Origin: Chloroflexota bacterium
GTDB taxonomy: Bacteria > Chloroflexota > Anaerolineae > UBA2200 > JACIWT01
Assembly (NCBI GenBank): GCA_014360825.1
Contig: JACIWT010000009.1
Coordinates: forward strand, 62,001-126,000
Length of the DNA stretch: 64,000 nucleotides
Direction of reading: 5' to 3'
The translations under genes and the position numbers were made by a program. Below, in pieces: positions 53,895 through 56,110 of the stretch (positions within the stretch are counted from its first letter, which is position 1; each line of letters opens with the position of its first letter). The notes below the pieces were generated by a model, which was not told the origin of the DNA, ran no database searches, and saw nothing but the letters and a program-made list of their open reading frames with translations.

Positions 53895-53983
53895 GCCTTT
53901 TTTCCCAGTGATGTACCTTGTTTATAATACGTAGAGTTTATTTCGATATGTCAGTTCTCATAACCGCCCAGGAGACATGGTGA

Positions 53984-56110
53984 ATGGACCAGACATTGAA
54001 CACTGAAATAGAATATCTAAATGTGGTCGGAGGTAGGTGGTGCGAATCTGCCGACCCTATCGGCATCTTTGAAGAGGAAGCGCGTGGACGGGGTAACCTC
54101 TACGTACTGGTTGAGACCTTTGGGCCATTTCCCGACACCCCGCTTGTCCAGCGGACCATTGTGGAGGCTGCACGGAACGAGTACTTTCGCCGAACCGGCA
54201 GCGTCACGGCTGGTCTCCGCGCAGCGGTAAAGGCAGCCAATCAGTCTCTTTTTGAACATAATTTGAATGCCCCGAGGGAAGAACGTGGTATCGCTGGCAT
54301 CAGCTGTTTGGTCCTGACAGGCGAGGACGCCTACATGGCATTGGCAGGACCATCCCTCATCTGCTTAGCAAGGGAAGGGCGTCTCCAATTTTTCCCGATG
54401 GAATCACCGTGGCACCGGGCAGCTAAGTACACTGACGTTGATCCTGCCATCTCTCCGCCCTTAGGTTTACGTCGCGAGATTGAGCCTGACCTCTACCACG
54501 TGACCGTTGGCTCCGGCGATGTGATCGTGATGGCCTCCACACCGCTCGTCCGGGTTGCGGAGCCCGAGCAGATCGGGGATGCGGTGGCAGGACGCAGTGC
54601 CCAGGTGATCGGGCAGAACCTGGAAGCACTCACCAAGGGAGAAGATCTGTCCGCTTTGATCATCCGAGTTGCTGCCGAGGAGGCTGTTATTGCCCCTCGT
54701 GGGGAATATCCCGAGAAATTGGGCGAGGTTCCAGAAGAGGAGATCGCCGTTCCTGGTTGGCGAGAGTCGTTGCAAGGGATAGGGCAGACGATAGAGGGCC
54801 TTCTGAAGCGGGCTTCCCGGTTAGCATTCACCTTGTTGAGCCGTACTCTCCCTGATCGGGGGGCCACGGCTGCAGAGCGACGCGGCGTGCGAAAGCCTCT
54901 GCCAGAGGCGCGCCCGGCAGGAAGTAATCGGATGTTGCTTTGGATCGCGCTGGCAATCCCGTTACTGGTGGCCTTTCTTTTCTTCGTGAGTCGCATCCAA
55001 TACGACCGCTCGCGCCAAGCCCACTTGACCAAACTCGTACAGGATGCCCAAGCAGCGATTGAGAGTGCTGACACCGCCACCCAGCGGGATCAAAAAAAAG
55101 CCGAACTTGAGAGAGCGGGACAGTTACTCGCCGAGGCAGCCATTATCCAGCCCGATGATCAGACTTTGTTGACCTTGCAACAAGAGCTGCAGGAGCGGCT
55201 CGATGTAGTGAACCAGGTTACCCGCCTCCGCTATTTCCTTAAACTGCGAGAGTTTCCTGATGAGGGCCAAATCGCTGGCTATCCTGTGCAAGTGATTGTG
55301 CACGCTAATGAGGTTTTTGTGCTGGATACAGGCCTGAACCGTGTTTACAAGTATTTGCTCACAGAACTGGGGGATGCAATTCAAGAACCGCCTGGGCAAG
55401 ATCCTATACTCTTGCGAGCGGGCGATCAGGTTGGCAACGCCGTCCTAGGTGATTTGGCAGGGATTGTATGGGCGGAGCCAGGAGATGCGAGGGCGGCTGG
55501 CAATCTGTTGGTCCTCGACAAAAACGGAAATCTCGTAGAATACGATCCGAGTACAGGATTACATCTCCTTTCACTAGACCGTAGTGTCACGTGGCGGAGA
55601 GCGCAGGCCTTAGGCAGTTTCATGGGTAGATTTTACCTATTGGACCCTTTAGACAACCGTATTTTGAGGTTCACCCCCACCGTGGATGGCTATAGCCGGC
55701 CGCCAGAATCCTACCTTTCCTCAAATGTCAATATAGACCTAAATGGCGCTGTGGATATGGCAATTGATGGGCACATCTATGTCTTGATCGCCGATGGTCG
55801 AATCTACAAATTTCTGTCTGGGGAACTCGAAACCTTCACGCTATCCAATTTAGATGAGCCACTGCAAGACCCATCGGCGATTTTCTCCTCTGCCATGGGA
55901 GACGAAGGCTATATTTATGTAGCAGATGCAGGCAACCAGCGTATTGTCCAGTTCACGAAAGAAGGGCGTTTCGTCCGCCAGTTCCGTAGCGATCCCCCGT
56001 ATTTCCAAGATTTGCGCGATTTGATCGTGGATGAAGCAGAGCGCAAGCTCTACGTGCTTGACGGCCGAGCCCTATACTTGGTGAACATACCTCCTGTGGA
56101 AACCGAGTGA
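53984..56110 (+). CDS. PP2C-like pseudophosphatase with membrane helix and beta-propeller
   Basis: Protein of 708 residues. Residues 1 to about 230 keep the PP2C fold pattern (TAGLRAAVKAANQSLFEHN, RGIAGISCLVLTGEDAYMAL), but metal ligands are missing: ETFG (44-47) replaces DGMG, LAGPSL (120-125) replaces the VGDSR site, and SGDVIVMASTPL replaces the SDGL site. One membrane helix lies at about 317-336, then a coiled coil (340-410), then repeated strands of an NHL-like propeller (for example EVFVLDTGLNRVYKY, GYIYVADAGNQRIVQFTKEGRF). TATAAT at 53923-53928 may be its -10. Function unknown; sensing or scaffolding at the membrane is plausible. Confidence 0.8.
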   Translation: MDQTLNTEIEYLNVVGGRWCESADPIGIFEEEARGRGNLYVLVETFGPFPDTPLVQRTIVEAARNEYFRRTGSVTAGLRAAVKAANQSLFEHNLNAPREERGIAGISCLVLTGEDAYMALAGPSLICLAREGRLQFFPMESPWHRAAKYTDVDPAISPPLGLRREIEPDLYHVTVGSGDVIVMASTPLVRVAEPEQIGDAVAGRSAQVIGQNLEALTKGEDLSALIIRVAAEEAVIAPRGEYPEKLGEVPEEEIAVPGWRESLQGIGQTIEGLLKRASRLAFTLLSRTLPDRGATAAERRGVRKPLPEARPAGSNRMLLWIALAIPLLVAFLFFVSRIQYDRSRQAHLTKLVQDAQAAIESADTATQRDQKKAELERAGQLLAEAAIIQPDDQTLLTLQQELQERLDVVNQVTRLRYFLKLREFPDEGQIAGYPVQVIVHANEVFVLDTGLNRVYKYLLTELGDAIQEPPGQDPILLRAGDQVGNAVLGDLAGIVWAEPGDARAAGNLLVLDKNGNLVEYDPSTGLHLLSLDRSVTWRRAQALGSFMGRFYLLDPLDNRILRFTPTVDGYSRPPESYLSSNVNIDLNGAVDMAIDGHIYVLIADGRIYKFLSGELETFTLSNLDEPLQDPSAIFSSAMGDEGYIYVADAGNQRIVQFTKEGRFVRQFRSDPPYFQDLRDLIVDEAERKLYVLDGRALYLVNIPPVETE

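Follow-up and report, generated by a model that had tools for sequence, protein, structure and literature searches.

Bacterial phosphatases of the PP2C (PPM) type carry conserved Asp residues in motifs 1, 2, 5, 8, and 11, as described in PMC12088040. The residues of motifs 2, 8, and 11 hold the two core metals, and the motif 5 Asp holds the third (PMC12088040; PMC4524716). According to PMC5468089, RssB works as an adapter with no need of phosphatase activity and other pseudo-PP2Cs exist, so a bacterial pseudo-PP2C is not new in itself. In PHLPP2, a single zinc is retained at M2 (PMC12002173). PknD of Mycobacterium tuberculosis consists of a cytosolic signalling domain, one transmembrane helix, and an outer C-terminal NHL propeller (PMC1262709). 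A literature search, made mostly without subscription papers, found no description of an architecture combining a PP2C domain, a transmembrane helix, and an NHL propeller.

Such a protein is encoded in the window, the stretch of 64,000 nucleotides of Chloroflexota DNA that was analyzed. The first-pass annotation had delimited the gene exactly, and both its start and its ribosome-binding site are plausible (Table 1). The full-length AF2 model had a mean pLDDT of 88.0 and a pTM of 0.63; pLDDT fell below 50 at linker residues 234-267 and 289-313, and the placement of the PP2C half relative to the propeller half is unreliable in this model.

Table 1. Features of the pseudo-PP2C/propeller gene; positions are those of the window
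Feature	Residues	Positions	Strand	Evidence or remarks
Complete ORF, 708 aa, ATG start		53984..56110	+	Pseudo-PP2C / transmembrane helix / helical hairpin / NHL propeller
Shine-Dalgarno-like AGGAG		53970..53974	+	9 nt upstream of ATG; read from sequence
PP2C/PPM-fold domain without metal-ligand set	6-232	53999..54679	+	Profile homology, AF2, structure comparison, alignment
Low-confidence linker; predicted helix 266-287 ahead of membrane	233-314	54680..54925	+	AF2
Transmembrane helix	317-335	54932..54988	+	Kyte-Doolittle 2.81; K+R 6 before, 4 after
Long helix and helical hairpin	340-409	55001..55210	+	Full-length AF2 model
NHL-type propeller, predicted outside	412-705	55217..56098	+	Pfam, profile, AF2, fold comparison

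Searched as a single sequence, the protein matched NHL in Pfam (E = 0.0098) and no PP2C family of that database, and NCBIfam reported a weak, short Stp1 stretch (E = 5.7e-5). Since the single-sequence scores were weak, relatives were gathered for profiles: 50 picked from the fetched loci were aligned with the window protein (51 sequences) over the N-domain (alignment A1) and over the full length (A2). The A1 profile revealed homology of the N-domain to PP2Cs among PDB sequences, matching tPphA (1.1e-14), PstP (8e-9), and Streptococcus agalactiae Stp1 (1.1e-5). The AF2 model of the N-domain (pLDDT 93.7, pTM 0.90) has the alpha-beta-beta-alpha fold of PP2Cs. PP2Cs were its best Foldseek matches (tPphA, 2.4e-14), and the best solved match in VIA-align was tPphA 5d2u (Z 24.5, rmsd 2.9 A, 210 residues). 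The RssB chain was absent among the 50 fold-comparison matches listed, which tells nothing either way. The first-pass annotation, made from the sequence and recommending structure prediction as a check, had claimed that the PP2C fold is kept. The profile and the models bear this out, and the full-length prediction also contains a helix at the transmembrane segment, a helical hairpin, and a propeller. Pfam family PF13672, from which a recent bacterial PP2C survey starts (PMC12088040), matches only 1 of the 51 members at E 0.01, so the family is easily missed by PF13672-based surveys.

In the window protein, the ligand columns are occupied by D24 (motif 1), E44 (motif 2), P123 (motif 5), and T186 (motif 8), and the motif 11 Asp column is a gap beside E220/D221. 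The three core metal Asp of motifs 2, 8, and 11 are therefore replaced, as had been claimed earlier, with another acid, E44, at motif 2. For comparison, 91 family domains were aligned, 52 from the class (window protein included) and 39 from the phylum search, the latter remaining from 49 full-profile rows after removal of 8 duplicates and 2 rows without an N-domain. The controls were 20 PP2Cs of the same class, chosen for their PP2C motifs and serving as a positive control, not as a sample; 18 of them had acids at all five ligand columns and 2 at four. The family domains had an acid at none of these columns in 18 cases, at one in 58, and at two in 15, some of the 39 phylum domains having been cut by the match envelope and scored as lacking ligands. 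At least three acids, let alone the five Asp of PPM phosphatases (motifs 1, 2, 5, 8, and 11), were found in 0 of 91; if a slip of two columns was allowed, 24 domains reached three or four. Asp or Glu occurred in 13 domains at motif 1, 67 at motif 2 (mostly Glu), 3 at motif 5, 2 at motif 8, and 3 at motif 11, and only 4 domains had at least two acids at motifs 2, 8, and 11. By structure comparison and the 91-domain alignment, the N-domain is a pseudophosphatase, that is, a PPM fold with missing metal ligands. Decay of the window copy alone is ruled out, since the ligands are missing across the whole family. This family-wide loss suggests that the N-domain is catalytically inactive.

The lost positions carry residues of their own. 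Pro takes the place of the motif 5 Asp in 77 of 91 domains, Gln stands three residues before this position in 73 (Leu in the window protein), and N93 is conserved in 74. The flap-holding segment between motif 5 and the LG motif has become shorter (medians of 33 and 30 residues versus 49; 38 in the window protein). The conserved Pro and the family-specific residues around it point to a site that was rebuilt and not merely decayed; the metal site of the family has the appearance of a surface reshaped under selection. Another reading is an altered metalloenzyme or a metal sensor, in which E44, D221, and other groups would bind one metal, with weak or different activity. The metal site may be partial or altered, because the motif 2 acid is kept in 67 domains and three or four acids are reached in 24 when slip is allowed; in addition, the motif 11 Asn column is acidic in 52 of 91 domains, and the single zinc of PHLPP2 provides a precedent (PMC12002173). 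Nevertheless, the Asp columns of motifs 5, 8, and 11 are nearly free of acids and paired acids at the core motifs are rare, and judged by conservation a complete alternative set of metal-binding acids appears to be absent. We regard the altered metal site as improbable.

The C-terminal part is a propeller, as the first-pass annotation had supposed, and it is of the NHL type. Its fold matches NHL structures (e.g., 6d69, 6.9e-11), the family profile matches the PknD propeller 1rwi in PDB (E 6.5e-11), and fold comparison also indicated similarity to Drp35-type enzymes. Conservation is highest in the propeller, where 109 of 288 columns lie below 2 bits; for the PP2C region the count is 54 of 215. 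The single transmembrane helix proposed earlier was likewise recovered, with a transmembrane peak in 91 of 91 family members. The helical region following it, previously described as a coiled coil, does exist, although a long helix that prolongs the transmembrane segment, plus a hairpin (residues 315-364, 368-388, and 393-409), describes it more accurately. An excess of Lys and Arg lies on the N side of the membrane helix in 72 of 91 members, on the C side in 11, and on neither side in 8; the Cys content in the same topology statistics was 7.15 versus 1.24 per 1,000 residues. The charge bias and the Cys contrast suggest a cytosolic PP2C part and a propeller on the outer side of the membrane, an orientation that is statistical and against which 11 of the 91 members point.

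The full protein matched 139 of 150 genomes of the class and 203 of 301 genomes of the phylum (E 0.001), the weakest of these matches being possible cross-hits to other NHL propellers. A second match in the genome of the window was a 1028-aa protein (L075:6580-9666, G000:C5) with a PMT_2 glycosyltransferase-like membrane part and a clear NHL propeller, and it is this propeller that explains the weak match. To look beyond the phylum, named genomes were scanned with exact short peptides, which reach close relatives only; the sole match, a Phycisphaerae contig, was due to chance, since none of its ORFs is matched by either family profile. The survey across Chloroflexota recommended in the first-pass annotation showed that the fusion of pseudo-PP2C, transmembrane helix, and propeller recurs across the phylum. 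The family is uncharacterized and phylum-wide.

The receptor-like anatomy suggested earlier, namely a PP2C fold without the ligand set, a single transmembrane helix, and a propeller across the membrane, is kept across much of the phylum. With a probability of about 0.62, we interpret the protein as a single-pass receptor or scaffold with a cytosolic pseudo-PP2C, an outer NHL propeller, and protein binding as its output. The propeller would bind an extracytoplasmic ligand or an envelope component, and the resulting change would pass via the helical hairpin and the transmembrane helix to the pseudo-PP2C, which would show or hide a protein-binding surface instead of removing phosphate. Both the direction of signalling and protein binding as the output are inferred. 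RssB and SpoIIE use PP2C switch helices to present or hide a protein-binding surface.

The position of the gene before tsaD had been noted as curious. Analysis of 61 loci did not support it as a clue: tsaD follows as the next same-strand gene in only 10 of them and an LCP-family (LytR-CpsA-Psr) gene in 8, so adjacency to tsaD represents minority local synteny and is ruled out as a functional clue. The previous gene is sbcD-like in 11 loci, guaA in 4, and ligA in 4. No constant neighbor of the family was found in the 61 loci, and the analysis revealed no partner or ligand of the protein. A NurA-type nuclease gene is located upstream on the opposite strand at four loci (L040, L050, L068, and L070), and an SbcD/Mre11-like gene lies directly upstream elsewhere; two kinds of repair nucleases thus occur near the family gene in different lineages. 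In three genomes outside the class, the family gene is followed by a short exported lipoprotein-like ORF (L109:6943-7488, L110:7058-7579, and L113:10622-11149) at distances of 21, -4, and -4 bases, respectively. The N-terminal sequences of these ORFs are alike, and the one tested (L109) had no Pfam match.

An LCP gene is present nearby in 11 of the 61 loci, and this linkage, together with the propeller being the most conserved domain, would suit an envelope scaffold. Here the propeller would be the working part, assembling or holding an envelope complex, and the pseudo-PP2C a cytosolic docking tether that transmits no signal. However, the LCP linkage concerns a minority of loci, and the pseudo-PP2C fold and the Pro replacing the motif 5 Asp are kept in distant lineages, beyond what a tether needs. 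We therefore consider a purely structural role rather unlikely and prefer the receptor or scaffold with a protein-binding output.

The genome of the window encodes one Hanks kinase and one SpoIIE-type phosphatase, and no PP2C_2 phosphatase was detected in it. This kinase, the only Hanks kinase detected there, has a long Pro/Thr-rich tail (L074:9605-11437, G000:C4); its gene adjoins one for a YfhO-type membrane protein and one that by eye resembles miaA. PP2C_2 was found in 110 of 150 genomes of the class, and a family match was present in 19 of the 20 genomes listed out of the 40 without it. In the kinase survey, which covered Hanks kinases only, no such kinase was detected in 61 of 301 genomes of the phylum, and 10 of the 20 of these that were listed have a family match. 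Seven of the latter, more than 90% complete and with a strong match, were kept (G170, G187, G211, G219, G227, G234, and G242); G162 and G191 were dropped because of completeness and G239 because of a weak match. PP2C_2 was found in 0 of the 7, and each contained exactly one match to a SpoIIE-type phosphatase, so partner switching is possible. The N-domain and the propeller occur in one ORF in four of them (G170, G187, G234, and G242; the G170 assembly is a single contig), and only the propeller part was seen in the other three.

These data bear on the possibility that the protein modulates phosphosignalling by Hanks kinases and PP2Cs, with the pseudophosphatase binding the kinase or shielding phosphoproteins. 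TAB1, which modulates TAK1, is the model for such a role. The presence of one Hanks kinase without PP2C_2 in the genome of the window agrees with it, as does the fact that NHL receptors elsewhere carry kinases (PknD). On the other hand, family matches occur in the seven genomes with neither a detected Hanks kinase nor PP2C_2; a role that always requires a Hanks kinase is therefore unlikely, which weakens such a partnership as the universal role, and we consider kinase modulation very improbable.

Returning to the receptor reading, its extension to the whole family is tentative: the phylum may possess receptor pseudophosphatases in which the NHL propeller gates, via the one transmembrane helix, a PP2C turned into a protein adapter, and which would work without Hanks kinases or Stp-type phosphatases. 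This is conceivable rather than probable. A role independent of kinases can be tested directly in the genomes where no kinase was detected. Matches to this easily missed family occur in most of the genomes sampled from the class. If its members are receptors, they would represent, beside RssB, another bacterial case in which a PP2C fold serves binding instead of catalysis. To our knowledge, no earlier pseudo-PP2C is known behind a membrane sensor, and the family would be the first.

Compared with the described systems, the family resembles the bacterial PP2C/PPM phosphatases tPphA, PstP, PppA, and Stp1 in fold, motif order, GD and LG landmarks, and profile homology; unlike them, it has lost the metal Asp, has a shortened flap region, and is fused via a transmembrane helix to a propeller predicted outside. 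RssB delivers sigma-S to ClpXP, whereas the family has a transmembrane helix and a propeller instead. RssB is also soluble and carries a response-regulator receiver. No receiver domain was found among the Pfam families matched by the 51 members, so the receiver plus PP2C-like layout of RssB is absent here. What RssB and the family have in common is a bacterial PP2C-related domain with a role independent of phosphatase activity, as PMC5468089 describes for RssB and as is predicted for the family. With PHLPP2 and TAB1, the family shares the PPM fold, the loss of metal ligands, and a multidomain organization (PMC12002173). Those proteins are eukaryotic and have other partner domains, and the inactivity of PHLPP2 was measured, whereas that of the family is predicted. 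No kinase family was found among the Pfam matches of the 51 members, which distinguishes them from PknD with its cytosolic kinase. Like PknD, the family has a single transmembrane helix followed by an NHL propeller, placed outside by topology statistics; where PknD has a kinase, the family has a pseudo-PP2C.
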